NCBI RefSeq assembly: GCF_001423245.1
Contig: NZ_LMOH01000026.1
Location: 308,187 to 372,186 of the forward strand
Source: Aureimonas sp. Leaf324
Lineage (GTDB): Bacteria > Pseudomonadota > Alphaproteobacteria > Rhizobiales > Rhizobiaceae
Length of the DNA: 64,000 nucleotides
Direction: 5' to 3'
The notes under the pieces are model-generated. The model saw nothing but the letters and a program-made list of their open reading frames with translations. It was not told where the DNA came from and searched no databases. Positions 5,777-53,053 of the stretch are shown piece after piece. The position numbers were made by a program, and so were the translations under genes. Each line of letters opens with the position of its first letter. Within the stretch, counting starts at the first letter, position 1.

Positions 5777-6544
5777 TCACAGGAACGCGTGCGCGCCCAT
5801 CCAGAGCGCCATCGCGACCATCATCACGTTCTCGGTGAGCGAAACGAAACCGAGCGGCACGTTGGACGAGCCGCCGACGCAGGCGCATTTCAGCTCGCGT
5901 TTGTCGACATAGACCGCCTTGAACACCGAGACCGCGCCCACCGTGCCGATGAAGAGGGCGACCGGCACGGACACGAACGTCAGGGCGCCCGCCAGCATCA
6001 GGATGCCCGCGAGCCCTTCGGCGAAGGGGTAGATGTAGGAATAGGGCACCCAGCGCTTGGCCAGGAGATCGTAGTTCAGGAACATCGTCGCGAAGGTCTC
6101 GACGTTCTGCAGCTTCTGGACGGCGAGAAGGCACATGGCGACCGCGATGAACCATTCCACCGTGCGCGCGGCGAACGGCGTGCCGAGGGCGGCATAGGCG
6201 ATCGCGAGCGCCATCAGCGCGCTCATGGCGAAGATCGCGATCACCGGCTTGTAGGTGGTCGCCTTGGGATCGGCGACGGGCTTGCCGAAGTAGCGGCGCG
6301 TGTCGTCGTAGCCGCCGATCCGCTCCCCGTCGATGAAGATCTGCGGCGTCGTCTTCACGCCGTGCTCGGCCTTGAACGCGTCCACCGCCTCGCGCGTGCG
6401 CAAGGGATGGTCCTCCACCTCGAAACCCTGTCGCTTCAGGAGATCGAGCGCCTTCAACCCGTAAGGACAGGTGTGCGTCTCCATCACCATGCGATGGATC
6501 GCGGCGCGGCGGGGGCTGGCGGTGGGGGAGATGGCGGCGGACAT
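5777..6544 (-). CDS. monothiol glutaredoxin fused to MauE/DoxX-like membrane domain
   Basis: A 255-residue two-part protein. The N-terminal part is glutaredoxin: ETHTCPYGLKAL supplies one active-site Cys (CPYG, so the second Cys of the usual CPYC is absent), followed by TTPQIFIDGERIGGYDD. The C-terminal part has about four hydrophobic membrane segments and a KCACVGG motif with two Cys after the third, as in MauE/DoxX-type redox membrane proteins. ATG at 6544 was chosen because the upstream in-frame ATG at 6607 lies inside the operator. The gene is transcribed from the MerR-type promoter at 6589-6620, so metal or thiol stress control is likely. The substrate and direction of electron flow are unknown. 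Confidence 0.8.
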   Translation of the reverse strand: MSAAISPTASPRRAAIHRMVMETHTCPYGLKALDLLKRQGFEVEDHPLRTREAVDAFKAEHGVKTTPQIFIDGERIGGYDDTRRYFGKPVADPKATTYKPVIAIFAMSALMALAIAYAALGTPFAARTVEWFIAVAMCLLAVQKLQNVETFATMFLNYDLLAKRWVPYSYIYPFAEGLAGILMLAGALTFVSVPVALFIGTVGAVSVFKAVYVDKRELKCACVGGSSNVPLGFVSLTENVMMVAMALWMGAHAFL

Positions 6545-6588
6545 CGGGGCGGCTTTCGCAAGGGATGGCAGGAAGGAGGGCCGCACCC

Positions 6589-6620
6589 GATATAGGGTCC
6601 GTACCATGGTACGGAGTCAA
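6589..6620 (-). promoter_or_regulatory. MerR-type promoter and operator of the glutaredoxin/MauE gene
   Basis: Reading the minus strand: a -35 TTGACT (6620-6615), a perfect 16-bp palindrome CCGTACCATGGTACGG (6614-6599), and a -10 TATATC (6594-6589). The spacer is 20 bp (19 if the -10 is read one base earlier), the stretched spacing typical of MerR-activated promoters. The TTGACTCCGTAC arm is the same as in classical mercury-resistance operators. The regulator gene lies immediately beyond on the plus strand, so the site probably controls both genes. Confidence 0.82.
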
Positions 6621-6623
6621 GCG

Positions 6624-7034
6624 ATGACGGGATGGACGATCGGGGGCCTCGCTGCGGAGGCCGGCATCGGGGTCGAGACGGTGCGCTTCTACCAGCGCCG
6701 CGGCCTCCTCGATGAGCCCGAGCGCCCCGCGGGCGGCGGGTCGGCGGGCGGGCACCGCCGCTACGGCGAGCGGGATGCCGAACGCCTGCGCTTCATCCGC
6801 GCCGCCAAGGTCGCCGGGTTCACGCTGGGCGAGATCGCCGAGCTTCTGCGGCTCGACGCGGTCCGGGACCGGCCCCGCGCGCGCGAACTCGCCGAGGCGC
6901 GGGTGCGGGCGCTGGACGAGCGCATCGGCGAGCTGACCGCCGCGCGCGACCGGCTGCAGCATCTGGCCGCCGCCTGCCGCGGGGGGACGGACGGCCCCTG
7001 CCCGATCGTCTCCTCGCTGGCCGGGGGCGGCTGA
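6624..7034 (+). CDS. MerR-family metal-responsive regulator
   Basis: A 136-residue MerR-family protein. The winged HTH begins TIGGLAAEAGIGVETVRFYQRRGLL (residues 5-29), then the wing HRRYGERDAERLRFI and a dimer helix. The C-terminal loop has Cys118 and Cys126 in a C-x7-C spacing, ending CPIVSSL. That spacing resembles CueR, while the operator resembles that of Hg-MerR; there is no Cys at the position of MerR Cys82. Metal specificity is therefore open (Cu/Ag-type, Hg or another soft metal). Start chosen at ATG 6624, because the ATG at 6606 sits inside the operator palindrome. Divergent from the glutaredoxin/MauE gene. Confidence 0.85.
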   Translation: MTGWTIGGLAAEAGIGVETVRFYQRRGLLDEPERPAGGGSAGGHRRYGERDAERLRFIRAAKVAGFTLGEIAELLRLDAVRDRPRARELAEARVRALDERIGELTAARDRLQHLAAACRGGTDGPCPIVSSLAGGG

Positions 7035-41956: not shown

Positions 41957-43744
41957 TCAGAACAGGATGTCGTCGAAGTCGTCGTCGGCCGGGGCAGTAG
42001 CGGCGGGCGCAGCGGTGGCGGTGGTCTCGCCGCCCGAACCCCCGAGTGCGGCGGCAAAGACGCTGCGCTCCTCCTTCATCGTGTAGCCGGCGCACAGGAG
42101 CGCATCGAGACGCGCGGCCTCCCCGGCCGGGAGTTCGCCGGCCGCGGATGCGGCGGCGAGCGAGGCGATCGCGACGGAGAGCGCCCGCATCATCGCCGTG
42201 CCCTCCTCGTGCAGCGACATCATCTCGAGGACCGCGCGGATCTCGTCGCCCATGCCGCCGGCGGCCTCGGCGCTGGCGGCAAGCGCGCGCGCGCTTTCGG
42301 CCTCGGCGCTGGCAAGGCCGGTGCAGGCCGTGGTGAGATTGCGGTCCACCGAGGCTTCCGCCTCGGCGATCGCCGGCAGGAGGCGGTCGGCGAGGTCCTG
42401 CGTGGCGGCGGCCGCGCGCTCGGTGCCGACGCGGATCACGTCCACCTCCTCGCGCGCCTGCGAGGACTGCTCGCGGATCACGCGGGCGATATAGCCGATC
42501 GTCTCGTCGCCGCCCTCGACATGGGCGGCCTGGATCGCGGCGTTGAGGCCGGCGAGGTTGAGGTGGAACTCGAGCCCCGTCATCTGGTCGGTCATCTCGA
42601 TGAGATGGGCGGTGCGCTCGACGCTGCGCGACAGGCTGGCGGCGAGCGTCCGGCGCGCCTCGGCGCCCGATTCCATCGCGGCCCGCAGGCGCGAGGCGCC
42701 CGCCTCCAGCGCCGCCATGCCCTCAGTACCGGTGCCCGGCGCGCGCAGGCCTTCCAGAATGTCGCCGCAGTCGTCGAGCCGGTCGGCGATCGCGGCAAGG
42801 TCGAGGCCGAGCTTGTCCATCAGCGCGCCGTAGGTCGCGGCGAGATCGTCGAGTTGGGCCGTCTCGAGCCGGGCGATGCGGCGCACCGCGGCCTCCCGGT
42901 GGGCGGGCTCGAGCGGCGCCTCGCCCTCGACGAGCCACCCGTCGCGCCGCAGCGGCCCGATCCGCTCGAGGTTCTGGACGGTGTGCTCCAGCCGCTGGCG
43001 CGCCATGTCGTGGGCCTGAAGGCCCATCACGGCGCCGGCGACCGCCTGCCAGACGGCGGTGAAGGCGCGCTGCGCCTCGTCCCGGCTCTTGGCCGCCGCG
43101 CCCTGCTGTTCGGCGATCCGGTCGATCAGCGCCTGGAAGCCGCCCGCGAGCGCGCGCTCGTCGCCAGTGGTGACCGCGCGCGCGGCGATGGTGCGGCTTT
43201 CCTGAAGCGCGGCGCGGAGCGACCCCATCCGCTCGTCGATCGACTGGGCGACCGACGTGCCCGACGTGACGAGATCGTCGACGGTGCGCGAGAAGGACAC
43301 GAGGTCCACCTCGGCGCCCGCCATGCTCTCGACCTGGGCCCGTGCGATCACGACGATGTAGTCGAGGACGCGGAACACGGTCTTCAGCGAGGTGGAGGCG
43401 CTGCGGGCGCTCTCGACCGCCGCGTTCAGTTCGCCGATCCGCTCCTGCCGCTCGGCGGTCAGCTGCCACGCCGTCTCGACGCTAGCCGCGGCCTCGACGA
43501 GGGAGGCGCGCGCCTCGGCCATCACGGGCTGGGTGAAGATTTCGGTCGCGCGCGCGATGCCCTCGCGCACGCCCGCGATCCGGCCGTGCGTCGTGCGCAA
43601 CCGCTCGCCGGCGTCGAGGAAGACGCTCTCGCTCGCCGTCGTCCAGCGGACGAGCGCGGTGGCGAGCCGCTCGAAGTCGCCGGGGCCGGGTGCGGCGGCG
43701 GCGGCGGGAGCCGCGCTGGAAAGTGTGTTCGCGCGTGTCGTCAT
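41957..43744 (-). CDS. soluble degenerate MCP-like signalling protein
   Basis: A 595-residue protein of mostly long helices with no membrane segment. Near residue 430 it has [20 protein letters not shown], then [20 protein letters not shown], which aligns with the tip of an MCP hairpin ([14 protein letters not shown]...[13 protein letters not shown]) but has lost many conserved positions. It ends in an acidic DDDFDDILF tail. ATG 43744 overlaps the cheB stop as ATGA. It may be a coupling-type or phosphatase-like part of the chemotaxis operon; it is not a typical receptor. Confidence 0.7.
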
Positions 43745-44835
43745 CGCTTGGCCGCCGCTGGCTTGAAGGAGGGATCGGCCGCAAACCGGAGGATTTCGGC
43801 GGGGATTTTGTCGAGCGGCAGTTCGGCCTCCACCGCACCGACCTTCATGGCTTCCTTGGGCATGCCGTAGACGACGCAAGTTCCCTCGTCCTGGCCGAGC
43901 GTGTGGGCGCCGGTCTGGCGCAGCTCCAGCATGCCCTTGGCGCCATCGTCGCCCATGCCCGTGAGGATCACGCCGAGCGCGTTGGCGCCGGCCGCGCGCG
44001 CCGCCGAGCGGAAGAGCACGTCGACCGAGGGGCGGTGGCGCGTCACCAGCGGCCCGTCGCGCACCTCGACATGGTACTGGGCGCCCGAGCGCTGGAGGAG
44101 GAGATGGTGGTTGCCGGGCGCGATCAGCGCGAGGCCCGGCACCACGCGGTCGCCGGTCGCCGCCTCGCGTACCTCCATGCGGCAGAGGCCATCGAGGCGG
44201 CGCGCGAAGGCGCTGGTGAAGCCTGCCGGCATGTGCTGGACGATGACGATGCCGGGCGAGTTCTCGGGCAGCGCCTCGAGCAGCCGGCGCAGCGCCTCCG
44301 TGCCGCCCGTCGAGGCGCCGATCACCACGACCTTGTCGGTGGTGCGGTCGATCGGCCGGCCCGAGACCGGCGGCAGCACGGCGTCGGCGGTCAGCTTCTT
44401 CTGGACGTCGATCGTGGCGGTACGGGCGACGACGCGCGCTTTCGACGCCGCGCGCACCGCGTCGCAGATGCGCGTCTTCGCCTCCATCAGGAACTGGGGC
44501 GTTCCGACGCGCGGCTTGGTGATGATCTCGACCGCGCCCGCCTCCAGCGCCTGCAGCGCCATCTTGGAGCCGGCCTCGGCGAGCGACGAGCAGATCACGA
44601 CCGGGATCGGGCGTTGGCTCATCAGCTTCTGCACGAAGGTGATGCCGTCCATGCGCGGCATCTCGATGTCGCAGACGATGACGTCCGGCACCGCCTCGCG
44701 CATCCGCTCGGCCGCGAAATACGGGTTCGAGGCGGTGGCGATCACCTCGATGTCGGCCTCGGCGTTGAGGATCTCCGACAGGATCGTGCGCACGCTCGCC
44801 GAATCGTCGACGATGAGGACCTTGATGGACGCCAT
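43741..44835 (-). CDS. cheB: CheB chemotaxis methylesterase/glutamine deamidase
   Basis: A 364-residue response-regulator esterase. The receiver domain has [14 protein letters not shown] and the phosphorylatable Asp56 in [13 protein letters not shown], with Lys in ITKPRV. The esterase domain has [14 protein letters not shown] (Ser), [18 protein letters not shown] (His) and [12 protein letters not shown] (Asp), the full catalytic triad. CheB removes methyl groups from MCPs in adaptation. ATG 44835 is preferred; GTG 44844, which overlaps the cheR stop (GTGA), would add three residues. It is followed by the MCP-like gene. Confidence 0.97.
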
Positions 44836-44840
44836 CGCGC

Positions 44841-45722
44841 TCACTCCGTCCGCTCGTAGATGTTGCTGCGGATCAGCCGGAGCGGGAGCCGGGTGGAGCG
44901 GATGGATTCGGCATGGCCGAGAAACAGGAGGCCGCCGACGCGAAGATGGCGCAGGAGCTTGCCGACCACCTCGAGCTGGGCGTCGGGCTGGAAGTAGATG
45001 AGGACGTTGCGGCAGAAGACGACATCCATCGTCTGCCCCGGCCGGTACTCGCCGTGCATCAGGTTGATCTGGCCGAGGCGGACGTTGCGCCGAAGCTCGG
45101 GCCGCACGCTCATCGCCTGGTCGGCCGCCGTGCCGACCGGCGTCAGGTATTTCTGGCGCAGGCGCGCCGGCACGTTGCGCACGGCGTCGGCGTGGTAGAC
45201 GCCCTCGCGCACGGCGTTCAGCATGCGCACCGAGATGTCGGTCGCCGTCACCGTCCACGGGAAGAGCTGGCCGCCGTTCGAGGCGTCGTCGGCGATCATC
45301 GCGAGGCTGTAGGCCTCCTGCCCGCTCGAGGACGCGGCCGACCAGATGCGCAGCGAGCGCTCGCGCCCGCCCTCGGCGAGGCGCCGCAGTTCGTCCGGCG
45401 TCAGGTACTCGAAATGCGGCGGCTCGCGGAAGAACGAGGTCTCGTTGGTGACGACGCAGTCGGTGAAGGCCTGCAGCTCGGCGGCGCGCCCCTCGGGCGA
45501 GCGAAGGAGCGCCAGATAGGCGCGGAAGTCCTCGAGGCCCCGCGCCACGAGGCGGCGGCGCAGCCGCGTTTCCAGCATCACCCGCTTGGCGTCGCTCATC
45601 ACGATGCCGCAGCTCTCGTCCACCAGCACCGCCAGCTCGCGGAAGGTCGCCGCGTCGAGGCTCGCCGTGTGGGCGCCGGCGGACACGGGGGCGGTTTTCG
45701 GAAGGGTCGCGGCTCGCGCCAT
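44841..45722 (-). CDS. cheR: CheR chemotaxis methyltransferase
   Basis: A 293-residue AdoMet-dependent protein-glutamate methyltransferase that methylates MCPs. It has [57 protein letters not shown] and [19 protein letters not shown], the AdoMet-binding loop, then [25 protein letters not shown] and [17 protein letters not shown] 45722 was chosen; the frame extends upstream as a non-coding leader. It lies between a cheW gene and cheB in one operon. No C-terminal tail for binding receptor pentapeptides is involved on its part. Confidence 0.95.
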
Positions 45723-45796
45723 GGTCGGGTCCGGTGCTGGAAGAAGAAGGACGGCCCGCATGCGTGGGGCCGCCGGGGAGGCGGCATCGTCTCGCG

Positions 45797-46315
45797 TCAG
45801 GCGAACTCGAAGCGCTCCGCCTCGAAGAGCCGCGGCAGGTCGAGCAGCGTCAGGAAGGTCTCGCCGCGCCGGCCGAGCCCCGTCATGAAGGACGAGTTCC
45901 ACGTCTCGCCGAACTCGGGCGCCGGCTCGACGTCCTCCGCGGCGAACTCGGTCACCTCGTGCACCGTGTCGGCGATCACCGCCACCGTGCGCCGGACGCC
46001 GCCCGCCTCGAAGTCGAGGACGACGATGCGGCTGTCGCCTGTCGGCTCGCCGTCGTCGAAGCCGCGCATGCGCAGCTTCGACTTGAGGTCCACCACCGGC
46101 ACGCCGGTGCCGCGCACGTCGATCATGCCGAGGAGCATCGACGGGGCGTTGGAGATGCGCGCGATCGGCTTGTAGTCGAGCACCTCGCGCACGTGGGCGA
46201 CGCGGATGCCGAACGTCTCCGAGCCGAGGCGGAAGGTCAAGATCTCGCGCGCGATCTCCTCGTCCGGCGAATCCGTGCCGGACGCATCGTGGTCGTAGCC
46301 GGCGGCAAAGCTCAT
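45797..46315 (-). CDS. cheW: CheW adaptor protein (second copy)
   Basis: A 172-residue CheW. The SH3-like core has [40 protein letters not shown] and [20 protein letters not shown], then [20 protein letters not shown] and a closing [17 protein letters not shown]. CheW links MCPs to CheA. It is the second CheW gene here, the first lying before the MCPs at 50560. ATG 46315 overlaps the stop of the downstream MCP as ATGA. Confidence 0.95.
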
Positions 46316-48284
46316 GCGCTCATCCTTTCGAAGCCGGCATCCTGGCAGTCGCCGCCGAGATCGAGGTCGAAACCGCCCTTGGCGACCGGCCGCGCGGACG
46401 CCTTGCTCTTCGGCGCGGCCGTGGCGGCGGCGAAGCGTCCGACCTTGGCCTGGAGGGCGCGGGCGTCGCCGGCGTGCGCCGCCGAGCGGGCGGCCTGGCG
46501 CGCGTCGTCCAGCCGGAAGTAGCCGGCGCGGTCGTTGAGGCGGCCGGCCTCGGCGGACAGCTGCTCGGCGGTGGCCGACATCTCGTTGGCGGCGGCCGCG
46601 TTCTGCTGCGTCACCTGATCGAGCTGCTGGATGGCCTGGTTGATCTGCTCGGCGCCGGCGTTCTGCTCGCGGCAGGCTGCCGAGATCTCGGCCACCAGTT
46701 CCGAGGTGCGCTGGATGTCCGGCACCAGCTGCTGCAGCATGCCGCCGGCTTCCTCGGCGATCTTCAAGGTCGTGCCCGACAGCGCCCCGATTTCGGTTGC
46801 CGCGATCTGGGAGCGCTCGGCAAGCTTTCGCACCTCGGATGCCACCACCGCAAAGCCCTTGCCGTGCTGACCGGCCCGCGCCGCCTCGATCGCCGCGTTC
46901 AGCGCCAGAAGGTCGGTCTGGCGGGCGATCTCCTGCACGATCCGGATCTTGTCGGCGATGGTGCGCATTCGGTGGTCGAAGCGTTCTCCGAGTTCTGGCG
47001 GATGTTGGCCGCCATCTCCTCCATCGCCGACGAGGCCTGCTCCGTCGCCGCCGCCTGTTCGGTTGAGCCCTGGCTCAGCTGCTCGGCGGTCGCCGAGGAC
47101 TGCTGCGAGCCGGCGGCGACCTGGCTTGCCGACCCGGTCACCTCCGACACGATCCCGCGCAGGTTCTCGGTCATCGCGTTCATGGCACGGTTCAGATCGC
47201 CGATCTCGTCGTCCGAGCGTACCGCGACGGTCTGCGTCAGGTCGCCGGCGCCGATGTCCTCGGCAAGCTTCACCGAGCGCTGAAGGCCGCGAGAGATGGT
47301 CAGCGCCATCCAGGCGGCGGCCGCCGCGCCGATCGCGAGCGCGCCTGCCACGAGGGCCACGAGCATGTTGCGGGTGGAGACGTAGGTTGCCTGCGCGTCC
47401 GCCACGTACTGGTCGGCGACCTGCTGGGCGCGCGTCACCAGTTGGTCGAGGCGGGCGGAGAGCTTCGTCGCCTCGGGCACGATGGTCCCCGTCTGGTATG
47501 CGAGCGCGCGGCTGTTGATGTTGTCGACGCCCCGGTCCGCAAAGCCGATCGCGAGCTTGTTGAAGGCGGCCCAGTTCGTCTCGATCGACTGAAGTGCCGC
47601 CGGCGCGATGCCCGGAACGCGCTCCAGCCTCGCCAGTGCGGCGTCGAAGCCCTTGGCGATGTCGTCGAGCGCGGCACGCTGAGCGGCGATCGCGCCGACA
47701 TCGCTGAGATCCAGCGCGGACACCATGGCGAGCCGCGATTCGTAGATCGCCTCCTTGGCAGCCGCCATATCGGTGAGCGCGCTGACGGTTCCCCCATCCG
47801 ACAGGGCGTTCAGTTCCGCGACCAGCTTGTCGAACAGGAAACCGGTCTCGACGAGAGCGACATCGGAGAGGTCGACATTCACCTCCCGGAACATCGGGAT
47901 GCCCTTGTCCGATACCTGGCGGAGGCTGTCGATCGCCGGCTTCACATCGGCGACTTCGGACTGGCGCGACGGATCGATCGCGGAGACGAAACGCTCGAAC
48001 GAGGTTTCGATCTGCCCCCAGCGCCCCTCGTACTCGCCGGCCAGCTTCTCGAACGCGGCCGGGTCGCTTTCGAGATACATGCGGAACATCAGCCGGCGCA
48101 GGTCTACGACGCCGGTCGCGATGTCCTTGGCGTTGTTGACCTGGACGAACGGGCGCTCGGCAAAGCGCTGCATCATCGCGTTGGACGCGCTGAGGCTCGA
48201 AATGCCGAAGTAGCCGGCAGTGCCCAGAAGGGCGAGAACCGCGCCGAAGGAACCGATCAGCTTGGTCTTGATGGTGAGGCGCAC
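46312..48284 (-). pseudogene. MCP-type chemoreceptor, frameshifted (receptor B)
   Basis: A methyl-accepting chemotaxis protein broken in two frames. The N-terminal part begins at ATG 48284 with a membrane helix ([20 protein letters not shown]), a periplasmic helical sensor, a second membrane helix near residue 320 and a HAMP domain. It then enters the signalling helix, NASTTE, and at about 46970 loses frame. The rest resumes in another frame at ATG 46968 ([20 protein letters not shown]) through [14 protein letters not shown] and the rest of the hairpin to a Lys/Ala tail ending FERMSA. The segment that normally joins these parts is missing. It is a paralog of the adjacent receptor at 48360-50490 and its end overlaps cheW. 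Confidence 0.8.
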
Positions 48285-48327
48285 GGGATCTGCCTTTCAG
48301 GAATGCTGGAAGTCTCGAGGGGCTGCG

Positions 48328-48349
48328 GCCGGCCGCCGAAGCGGCCGGC
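48328..48349 (-). other. GC-rich hairpin with TTCG loop between the two MCP genes
   Basis: GCCGGCCGC and GCGGCCGGC form a nine-base-pair stem; on the transcribed minus strand the loop is TTCG, an unusually stable tetraloop. The run of T lies before the hairpin in the direction of transcription, not after it, so this is not a standard terminator. It may be an mRNA processing or stability element between receptors A and B. Confidence 0.5.
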
Positions 48350-48359
48350 AGAAAAAGCG

Positions 48360-50490
48360 TCAGGCGCTCATCTTCTCGAAGCCGTTGTCGTCGCCGTCCC
48401 CGAGGTCGAGGTCGAAGCCCTTGACCGCGGGCTTGGCCACCGGCTTGGCCGGGGACCGAGCCGGAGCGCCGGCGCGGCTCTCGGCAAAGCCCCGGACGTC
48501 GGCCTGGAGGCGGCGCACGTCGGCCTTGGCGCGCGGCGCCGGGACCTTTCGGGTGGCGGCACCGGCATCTTCGGCGAGGCGGAAGAAGGCGACGCGGTCG
48601 GTGAGGCGCGAGGCTTCCGACGAGAGCTGCTCGGCGGTGGCGGCCATCTCGTTGGCGGCCGAGGCGTTCTGCTGCGTCACCTCGTCGAGCTGGACCACGG
48701 TCTCGTTGGTCTGCTGGGTGACCTTGTCGAGCTGCTGGATGGCCTGGTTGATCTGCTCGGCGCCGGCGTTCTGCTCGCGGCAGGCCGCCGAGATCTCGGC
48801 CACCAGTTCCGACGTGCGCTGGATGTCCGGCACCAGCTGCTGCAGCATGCCGCCGGCTTCCTCGGCGATCTTCAGGGTCGTGCCCGACAGCGCCCCGATC
48901 TCGGTCGCCGCGATCTGTGAGCGCTCGGCAAGCTTTCGCACCTCGGACGCCACCACCGCAAAGCCCTTGCCGTGCTGGCCGGCCCGCGCCGCCTCGATCG
49001 CCGCGTTCAGCGCCAGAAGGTCGGTCTGGCGGGCGATCTCCTGCACGATCCGGATCTTGTCGGCGATGGTGCGCATTCCGCTCGGCGCTGGTCGAGGCTT
49101 GCGCCGCGATCTTTTCCGTCGTCGAGGCGTTCTCGGAGTTCTGGCGGATGTTGGCCGCCATCTCCTCCATCGCCGACGACGCCTGCTCCGTCGCCGCCGC
49201 CTGTTCGCCGGCGCCCTGGCCGAGGCGCTCGGTGGAGGCCGCCTGTTCGGTTGCGCCCTGGCTCAGCTGCTCGGCGGTCGCCGCCGACTGCTGGGCGCCG
49301 GCGGCGACCTGCTCGGCCGAGCGCGTCACCTCCGACACGATGGTGCGCAGGTTCTCGGTCATCGTGTTCATGGCGCGGGTCAGGTCGCCGATCTCGTCGT
49401 CCGAGCGCACCGCGACGGTCTGCGTCAGGTCGCCGGCGCCGATGTCCTCGGCGAGCTTCACCGAACGCTGCAGCCCGCGCGAAATCGACAGCGCCATGAA
49501 GGCCGCGGCGGCGGCACCGATCGCCAGCGCGCCGATCACGATCGCGATCAGCATGGTGCGGGTGCTCTCGTAGTTCGCCTGGGCGCTCGTCACCGAGGAC
49601 TGCGCGCTCTCGGACGCCTGGCGGGCGAGTTCGTCGAGGCGGTCGCTGAGGGCACCGAGGGTCGGGGCCACCTGGGTATCGAGGGCCGACTGCGCGTTGG
49701 CAAAATCGTTGCGAACGCCATAGGCCGCCGTCTGCGAAAGGACGGTGTCGGCCGCATTCCATTCGGCGCGCAGCTTCTGGATGAGGCCCGCCTGGCTGCC
49801 GGCCGCAGGGCTGGCGGCCACCGCGTCGAGCCGTGTCGCAAACTCGTTGGTCAGCGCGTCGACGCGGTCGGACGCGCCCTGGATCGCCTGCGCATCGCCG
49901 AGCACGACGGCCGAGACGGCGGCAAAGCGCGCGCGTTCCAGACCGGAGGCCATGTCGCCGGCAAGGGCCGCCTCGCTGCGCGCGCCCGATGCCTCGAAGC
50001 CGGACTTCAGCCCGGCCAGATCGGCGAGCAGCGGATCGACCGCGGCGCCGACCTCGCGGATCGCCTTGTCGCCCGCGGCATTGTCGGCGCGCTCGAGAAG
50101 GGAGAGAGCGTCGTCGACCACCGAACGGGCCTTCACCACGGCGGGCGCGAGATCGGCGGCGGCCCTGCGCCCCTCGTCGTCCAAGGTCCCGAGCATCAGC
50201 GCGCTCTGGTGCTCGATGTCCTGCCAGTTCTGCTGCACCGCTCCCTTCAGCTTCGCGATCTCGGCGGCATCGGTGGAGAGGAGGATGCCGACAAGCGCGC
50301 GGCGCGTGTCCATCATCGCGACCTTCATCTCCATGTCGCTGCCGAGTTGGCGGAAGGGGCCGGCGGCGAAGTCGGCCATCGACTGGTTGGTCTGGCCGAG
50401 GCTGGAAATGCCGAAATAGCCGGCCGTCCCCAGAAGGGCGAGAACCGCACCGAACGAACAGATCAGCTTGGTCTTGATGGTAATACGCAT
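48360..50490 (-). pseudogene. MCP-type chemoreceptor, frameshifted (receptor A)
   Basis: Paralog of the receptor at 46312-48284, broken at the same place. The N-terminal part runs from ATG 50490 (membrane helix [20 protein letters not shown], sensor, second membrane helix, HAMP) to [18 protein letters not shown]; frame is lost at about 49077. Translation could resume at ATG 49076 ([20 protein letters not shown]) to the tail GFEKMSA. It differs from receptor B by 14 extra residues in each arm of the hairpin ([14 protein letters not shown], and [14 protein letters not shown]). This two-heptad symmetry is what a functional receptor pair shows, so the lesion is recent or an assembly error. Confidence 0.8.
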
Positions 50491-50559
50491 CGGGAGGGGT
50501 CCGGGATCGGAAGGGAGCCGAAGGGTTGTGGAAGGCTGGGCGAAGGGCGGGCGGAACGT

Positions 50560-51054
50560 TCAGTTCGGCAGGGGCGCGGGATCGGCCTGCAGCACGGTCT
50601 CGAGGTCGAGAAGGACCACGAAGCCGCCGCCGTGGCGCACGACGCCGCGCAGGAAGCGCAGCGGCCAGCGCGTGCCGTTCTCGGGGACGGGCTCGACGGC
50701 CGCGCGCTCGAGCGAGACGACCTCGTGCACGGCGTCGGCCTTGATCGCGACGAAGAAGCCCTCGCCGCCCGTCTCGACGCGCGAGACGATGACGCGCGAG
50801 CTTTCGGTGTCGGCGACCGCGGGCATGGCGAAGCGGCGGCGGAGATCGATCAGCGGCATGATGTTGCCGCGCACGTTGACGAGGCCGGGCGCAAAGGCCG
50901 GCGCGTTCGGCACGGTGGTGACGGGCGGCGGGTCGAGCACCTCGTGCACCGCCTCGACGGCGAGCGCGAAGACATCCTGCCCGAGCGAGACGGTGAGGAA
51001 GTCGACGGGCGGCGCGGCGGCGAGGTCGGGCGCGGCGGCGGGGGCTTGCGTCAT
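50560..51054 (-). CDS. cheW: CheW adaptor protein (first copy)
   Basis: A 164-residue CheW. An Ala/Pro-rich head is followed by the SH3-like core: VDFLTVSLGQDVFALAVEAV, HEVLDPPPVTTVPNAPAFAP, GLVNVRGNIMPLIDLRRRF and VAIKADAVHEVVSLERAAVE, ending GGGFVVLLDLETVL. It couples receptors to CheA. It lies between cheA and receptor A, 16 bp after cheA's end, in the same operon. The two CheW copies differ enough to serve different receptor types, which is inference. Confidence 0.94.
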   Translation of the reverse strand: MTQAPAAAPDLAAAPPVDFLTVSLGQDVFALAVEAVHEVLDPPPVTTVPNAPAFAPGLVNVRGNIMPLIDLRRRFAMPAVADTESSRVIVSRVETGGEGFFVAIKADAVHEVVSLERAAVEPVPENGTRWPLRFLRGVVRHGGGFVVLLDLETVLQADPAPLPN

Positions 51055-51070
51055 CGGTTCGCGCTCCGGC

Positions 51071-53053
51071 TCAGGCGGCGAGGCGGTCGGCGCGCGCGGC
51101 GCCCGCCTGCCGGACCAGGGTGTTGATGTCGAGGATCAGCGCCACCGAGCCGTCGCCGAGGATCGTCGCGCCGGCCAGGCCCGGCGTCGCGCGGTGCAAC
51201 GGCGAGAGCGGCTTGATCACGGTCTGGTGCTGGCCGACCACTTGGTCCACCACCACGCCGACGCGGCCCGTGTCGGTGTCGGCCACCACCACGATCCCGT
51301 CCTCGGCCGAGGCGGTGCCGAAGATCGCGTCCATGTGGAAGATCGGCACGATCGTGTTGCGGATGTCGACGAAGTTGCGCCCGCTCGACGTGCGGCACTC
51401 GATCGCCGCGAGCTCGACGCATTCCTCGACATTGGCGAGCGGCAGGATGCACTTCGTCTCGCCGACGCGCACCAGGAGCCCGTCGATGATGGCGAGCGTC
51501 AGCGGCAGGCGCAGCGTGAAGCGCGTGCCCCGGCCGGGCTCGGTCGCGATCTCGATCGAGCCGTGCAGTTCGCCGATCGTGCGGCGCACGACGTCCATGC
51601 CGACGCCCCGACCCGACAGGTTCGACACGGCGGCGGCCGTCGACAGGCCGGGGTGGAAGATCAGCTCGTCGATCTCGCGGTTCGGCGGCGTCACGCCGTC
51701 GGCGACGATGCCGGCGGCGCGTGCCTTGTCGAGGATGCGCTCGCGGTTGAGGCCGGCGCCGTCGTCCTCGATCGTGATGATGACCTCGGTGCCGGACTGG
51801 CGGGCCGAAAGGCGCAGCGTGCCGCGCTTCGACTTGCCCGCGGCCAGCCGGCGGTCCTGCATCTCGATGCCGTGGTCGATCGAATTGCGGATGATGTGGA
51901 CGAGCGGATCGCCGAGGCGGTCGAGCACGGTCTTGTCGAGCTCGGTGTCCTCGCCCGAAAGGACGAGGTCGATCTCCTTGCCGAGATCGCTCGACAGGTC
52001 TCGCACCACGCGCCGGTAGCGCGAGAAGAGCGAGTCGATCGGCAGCATGCGCATGTCCATGGCGCTGTCGCGCAGGTCCGCCGAGATGCGCTCGATCTCC
52101 TCGACCACGGCGGTGAGGACGGGGTCGTGGCGCTGGTGGGTGAGAGCCGTCAGGCGCGCCTGCGCGATCACCAGCTCGCCCACCTGGTCGAGCAGCGTGT
52201 CGAGGCGCGAGGCCGACACGCGGACGCTCGCCTCCGGCTGCGCCTGGCTCTTCGCCTCGGCCCTGGCCGGCTCGGCCTTGGCGGCGGGGGGAGCCGCGAC
52301 GGCGACCGGCTCGACACTTTCCGGCGCGAGAGCGGGCGCGGCCTCGGCCGTGCCGAGCGCCTCGATCGCGACGGCGCCCGGCTCGTCGACGAAGATGAAG
52401 ACGTCCTCGATCGCGCCGAGGCCCTGATCGGTGGAAAGGGTGATGCGCCAGGCGAGATGCAGTTCGGTCGGCGCGAGGACGGTGAGCTCCGGCACCGCGT
52501 CGGTGAGCGCCTCGACCTCGGCCTCGCCCAGCGCGCGTAGCTCGTCGAGGAGGGCCAGCGGGTTGGTGCCGAAGAGGAGCGCGTTGGCAGGCAGGCGCAG
52601 CGTGATGGCAAAGCGGCTGGCGGCCGGCGCCTGCGGCATGGCGGCGGCGGCGGGCACGGCAGCCGGCGTGCCGGAGGCCTCGCCGCCGACGGCGGCCTGC
52701 AGCGCCTCGACGAGCTCGGCGCTGCGCGCGGCGAGCGCCGGCGCCGGCTCGAACAGGAGGCGGCGGATCTGGTCGGTGGCAGCCAGGAGCACGCCGACGA
52801 GGGCGGGCGTCAGCGGCGCCTCGCCCCGACGCACCCGCTCGAACGCGTCCTCCAGCTTGTGGGCGAAGGCGGCCATGTCGGGCGGGCCGAACATGCCGCC
52901 CGAGCCCTTCAGCGTGTGGAGCGCGCGGAAGGTGGTGTTGATGAGCTCGGCATCGTCGGGACGCGCCTCGAGATCGAGCAGCGCCGCTTCCAGCTGCTCC
53001 AGGAGGTCGCGGGCCTCGTTCAGGAAGATCTCGACGGCGTTCCCGCTGTTCAT
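51071..53053 (-). CDS. cheA: CheA chemotaxis histidine kinase
   Basis: A 660-residue CheA. P1 has the phosphoacceptor His46 in TFRALHTLKGSGGMFG. After an Ala/Pro linker, a middle domain (P2-like) follows at about residues 145-230. The dimer domain is RLDTLLDQVGELVIAQARLT, the ATPase N-box is HIIRNSIDHGIEMQDRRLAA with later G-boxes (DDGAGLNRERIL and LSGRGVGMDVVRRTIGELHG), and the C-terminus is a CheW-like P5 domain. All catalytic residues look present. It autophosphorylates and passes phosphate to CheY and CheB. It lies 4 bp after cheY's stop and 16 bp before cheW. Confidence 0.96.
   Translation of the reverse strand: MNSGNAVEIFLNEARDLLEQLEAALLDLEARPDDAELINTTFRALHTLKGSGGMFGPPDMAAFAHKLEDAFERVRRGEAPLTPALVGVLLAATDQIRRLLFEPAPALAARSAELVEALQAAVGGEASGTPAAVPAAAAMPQAPAASRFAITLRLPANALLFGTNPLALLDELRALGEAEVEALTDAVPELTVLAPTELHLAWRITLSTDQGLGAIEDVFIFVDEPGAVAIEALGTAEAAPALAPESVEPVAVAAPPAAKAEPARAEAKSQAQPEASVRVSASRLDTLLDQVGELVIAQARLTALTHQRHDPVLTAVVEEIERISADLRDSAMDMRMLPIDSLFSRYRRVVRDLSSDLGKEIDLVLSGEDTELDKTVLDRLGDPLVHIIRNSIDHGIEMQDRRLAAGKSKRGTLRLSARQSGTEVIITIEDDGAGLNRERILDKARAAGIVADGVTPPNREIDELIFHPGLSTAAAVSNLSGRGVGMDVVRRTIGELHGSIEIATEPGRGTRFTLRLPLTLAIIDGLLVRVGETKCILPLANVEECVELAAIECRTSSGRNFVDIRNTIVPIFHMDAIFGTASAEDGIVVVADTDTGRVGVVVDQVVGQHQTVIKPLSPLHRATPGLAGATILGDGSVALILDINTLVRQAGAARADRLAA

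Follow-up and report, generated by a model that had tools for sequence, protein, structure and literature searches.

Draft genome assemblies built on de Bruijn graphs carry overlaps between contigs, and faulty joins at repeats. The locus described here lies in a 64,000-nucleotide stretch of DNA from Aureimonas sp. Leaf324 (hereafter the window) and resembles such assembly joins in that two tandem receptor genes share a block of 98-100 bases, equal in size to the 98-99-base overlaps found at the contig ends of the same assembly. It differs from the N-marked joins of that assembly, five of which duplicate the overlap around the N, whereas the window loses sequence and carries no N. The closest biological counterparts are the che-operon receptors of another Aureimonas genome (G008, contig C12) and of A. 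psammosilenae (locus L029), which are of the same 4HB-HAMP-MCP type and likewise stand two in a row; G008 also has relatives of both CheW genes that flank the pair, as in the window. While the copies in G008 and A. psammosilenae run uninterrupted through the site, those in the window lack 32 and 70 nt at the signalling tip. An MCP gene of Aureimonas sp. Leaf427, again of the same receptor type, contains an assembly join in the same tip segment, though there 98 bases are duplicated around one N, at positions 6429-6625 of locus L034, instead of being deleted. This duplication in the MCP gene of a public record is in-frame and probably artificial.

The locus occupies 43741-53053 on the minus strand, in the order CheA, CheW, receptor A, receptor B, CheW, CheR and CheB. 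The flanking genes, CheA and CheW upstream (50560..53053) and CheW, CheR and CheB downstream (43741..46315), are uninterrupted open reading frames assigned by Pfam profiles, and between them lie the tandem MCP genes A (50490-48360) and B (48284-46312), each of which falls into two parts. The N-terminal part of A (49078..50490) comprises the 4HB ligand-binding domain, HAMP and the start of the signalling helix, with Pfam 4HB_MCP_1 and HAMP placed on residues 1-470, and that of B (46971..48284) comprises the 4HB domain and HAMP and runs to ...NASTT, the next codon spanning the break; in the N-terminal parts of both, PF12729 and PF00672 scored above the cut-off. The rest of the MCPsignal domain is encoded in the C-terminal parts of A (48360..49076) and B (46312..46968), whose products are 82.5% identical over their full length. 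These match only profile positions 34-172 (A) and 34-168 (B) of MCPsignal, in a frame that differs from that of the N-terminal parts, and neither receptor as assembled contains a complete MCPsignal domain in one frame. Because the frame of B's C-terminal part coincides with A's first frame and no stop intervenes, 46312..50490 also reads as a single spurious open frame of 1392 aa, which a comparison of frames resolved into A's N-terminal part, out-of-frame sequence and B's C-terminal part.

Both receptors lose their frame just before the same ATG, at 49076 in A and 46968 in B, and their C-terminal parts are open in another frame from these ATGs (238 aa in A), as the first-pass annotation, which worked from the letters alone, had described with correct coordinates. 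The sequence GAATGCGCACC occurs twice on the minus strand, its first bases at 49078 and 46970, and from its start the two genes share 100 identical bases (98 counted from the ATG), in agreement with the earlier remark that about 100 bp from the breakpoint are the same in both copies. Within this run, a 99-base block with its left edge at the break spans 48979..49077 in A and 46871..46969 in B, the identity extending one base further left, to 49078 and 46970. B's own frame ends ...NASTTE, and A's first frame ends differently. A hand count on an alignment with intact relatives put the missing sequence at 32 nt in A and 70 nt in B, neither a multiple of three, which corresponds to about 11 and 23 codons; the earlier estimates of about 10 and 20 residues, and the claim that the 5' breakpoints differ, were thereby upheld. 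The two losses have different lengths and left ends but the same right end to the base, and the exact break is uncertain by at most two bases, since the GA before the ATG can be assigned to either side. No N was found at either break or elsewhere in the window, and neither break is accompanied by a duplicated overlap, unlike the five N-marked joins.

A comparison with related strains, which the first-pass annotation had proposed, yielded intact orthologs carrying the linker. In G008, both receptor genes are open through the site, in frames of 828 and 711 residues, and both receptor copies of A. psammosilenae have the linker as well. The A ortholog of G002, a MAG, also contains it and is 93% identical in nucleotides, with no gaps, over A's N-terminal part; its contig ends 100 bases after the ATG start, two bases past the shared block. 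Neither the rest of A, nor an ortholog of B or of the downstream CheW, was found in G002, so this genome informs on A's linker only. More broadly, outside the source genome the tip motif occurred 78 times in the loci listed, which include the best 80 of 546 matches; these occurrences gave 65 distinct sequences, and all 65 carry the linker in frame, a count that is based on the motif, and hence on receptors with this tip sequence, and that leaves out the other receptors of the source genome. A search of the 30 contigs of the source genome with the G008 receptor segment found no linker, in an assembly from which very short contigs were perhaps dropped.

The draft of the source genome totals 4,415,253 bases over 30 contigs, and its overlaps were surveyed in the 1000 bases at each of the 60 contig ends, requiring an exact match to another end that starts within 8 bases of the tip and taking the best match per end, a procedure by which pairs may count twice. 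Such an overlap was present at 44 of the 60 ends and absent from 16; its length was 99 bases at 23 ends and 98 at 7, with the others at 61, 95, 102, 105, 115, 121, 128 and 190. Such lengths are what one expects from a de Bruijn assembler whose overlap is about 99, SPAdes with K = 99 being, we presume, one candidate. The same contig ends contain 20 N positions, and five of these single Ns are flanked by a perfect duplication, of 99 bases in C1, in C7 and twice in C8, and of 98 bases, following one further base, in C29. At each of these five places, two contigs with the overlap in common were set one after the other. For the remaining 15 N positions in the contig ends, no such flanking duplication was seen; two of the N entries, in C23, belong to a single site that shows a 120-base repeat at a distance of 172.

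A further join without an N, likely another bad one, lies in the same assembly at the start of contig C9 (1-140). This contig starts inside a third MCP gene, which is cut near its tip and fused without an N to unrelated sequence; the contig opens with a 43-base tandem repeat, followed by 53 bases (44-96) identical to C12. Two further contig edges lie at MCP genes: C23 extends 193 bases beyond the edge of the signalling-domain match in another MCP and then ends, and the start of C14 is 96% identical to C9's MCP over 195 bases.

The right edges of the breaks in A and B fit the same overlap length. After the ATG, the first difference between A and B comes at offset 98 (48978 in A, 46870 in B), so a 99-base overlap that ends there starts one base before the ATG, at 49077 in A and 46969 in B, which is where both genes break; in each gene, the break thus stands one overlap length from the first difference between the paralogs, with an ambiguity of one to two bases. 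A toy graph of random DNA, given repeats of 99-250 bases and an overlap of 99, placed the start of the right-hand pieces 99 bases ahead of the first difference in all of 100 cases. At the local divergence of A and B (8 differences in the first 330 nt after the break), the chance of an identical run of 98-100 bases was about 0.006, a rough guide that was chosen with knowledge of the overlap length. Both window copies have an A immediately before the ATG, where nine of nine Aureimonas copies checked have G or C, which indicates that the shared block may measure 98 bases instead of 99, as would hold if this A came from the left pieces. Paralog identity of such length is not general in the genus, given that the longest identical in-register runs around the ATG measure 89 bases in G008 and 41 in A. 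psammosilenae; the receptor pair of the source genome happens to reach the critical length.

Taken with the other junctions and the intact orthologs, the overlap-length block leads us to regard the breaks in A and B as an artefact of short-read assembly, namely faulty joins at a repeat boundary, with a probability of roughly 93%. Of the options in the first-pass annotation, the one that blamed an assembler for collapsing the repeat is strongly supported as far as the assembler is concerned and needs refining as to simple collapse, because both copies of the block are present and it is the sequence to their left that is missing. In the organism, A and B would most likely be two ordinary, intact, tandem 4HB-HAMP-MCP receptors of the che operon, with a shared identical stretch at the signalling tip that roughly equals or exceeds the assembler's overlap in length (about 99 bases). 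In the de Bruijn graph, the right-hand pieces would then start one overlap length before the first differing base, here one base before the conserved ATG, and during scaffolding or gap closing the left pieces may have been trimmed, losing 32 nt (A) and 70 nt (B), before they were joined directly to the right pieces with no intervening N. The right edges of the breaks are explained quantitatively by the overlap rule. The same rule leaves the left-side loss unexplained, and this N-free loss, presumably due to trimming or bad gap closing, is the weakest step of the account.

Next in standing, and improbable by comparison, is the reading that the strain truly lost the sequence, whether by two deletions or by one that was partly spread by gene conversion, truncating both receptors. 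In its favour, the sites carry no N, and the near-identity of the copies just past the break favours recombination; we consider it a slim chance that both signalling helices lost their linker through recombination between the two tandem genes, with the shared block setting the right end. Such an event would have had to produce right ends that agree to the base and fall at the assembly's own overlap length while the left ends differ, in receptors whose linker is present in every one of the 65 distinct copies examined outside the source genome, and to leave remaining pieces without an internal stop. The suggestion in the first-pass annotation of paired deletions at one recombination site gained no positive support beyond the assembled sequence.

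Real pseudogenes were also considered and rejected: none of the four receptor pieces contains an internal stop, and for A's N-terminal part the dN/dS against G002 was 0.074 (470 codons, no indel), which implies purifying selection on this part. Against the more distant G008, dN/dS was 0.45 for A's N-terminal part, 0.16 for its C-terminal part, and 0.40 and 0.27 for the corresponding parts of B, values that are weaker evidence of constraint than the one obtained with G002. Judged from these sequence comparisons, the receptors would not be old pseudogenes, most clearly so for A, and a very recent loss would still be compatible with the values.

The remaining option of the first-pass annotation, translation of each C-terminal part as a protein of its own starting at the internal ATG, is barely credible. 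An ATG does open each C-terminal part, but the corresponding Met stands in frame behind the linker in all 65 distinct outside copies (the Met being part of the search motif, which makes its own conservation there automatic), and by eye the bases before the internal ATGs, ...GCCGAGCGGA and ...ACCACCGA, offer no clear ribosome-binding site at the usual distance. Moreover, the architecture of MCPs includes an antiparallel hairpin, of which one strand would be missing from a C-terminal part by itself, which also argues against a separate product, and nothing beyond the assembled sequence spoke for this option. A translational frameshift across each break, which the open sequence on both sides would permit, is just as implausible, as the two sites call for different shifts, the internal ATG standing 1 base out of A's frame and 2 out of B's, and the conserved linker residues would still be absent.

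Attributing the breaks to faulty joins means that they are very probably not a real feature of the living bacterium, and the finding changes nothing about its biology; its value is that of a warning. Where chemoreceptors stand in tandem, their conserved tips can be as long as a short-read assembler's overlap and yield frameshifts without an N, which databases could take up as pseudogenes or as long fused open reading frames. The 1392-aa frame is a case in point: it should not be mistaken for a protein, although annotation might list it as a giant one. A suspect break of this kind can be checked without reads, against the overlap length at the contig ends of the same assembly. Among the literature matches listed, no title dealt with this locus or with MCP tips as an assembly hazard, which is no proof that such work is absent.

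Two other contig starts of the source genome deserve mention. The start of C25 (179-536) contains eight single Ns, of which six lie three bases from a neighbour, and is 99.5% identical to the end of C26 over 209 bases; perhaps near-identical paralogs were merged there. The start of C2 (1-40) is an inverted repeat containing TCCGATCT and AGATCGGA, which resembles either adapter sequence or the end of a mobile element.
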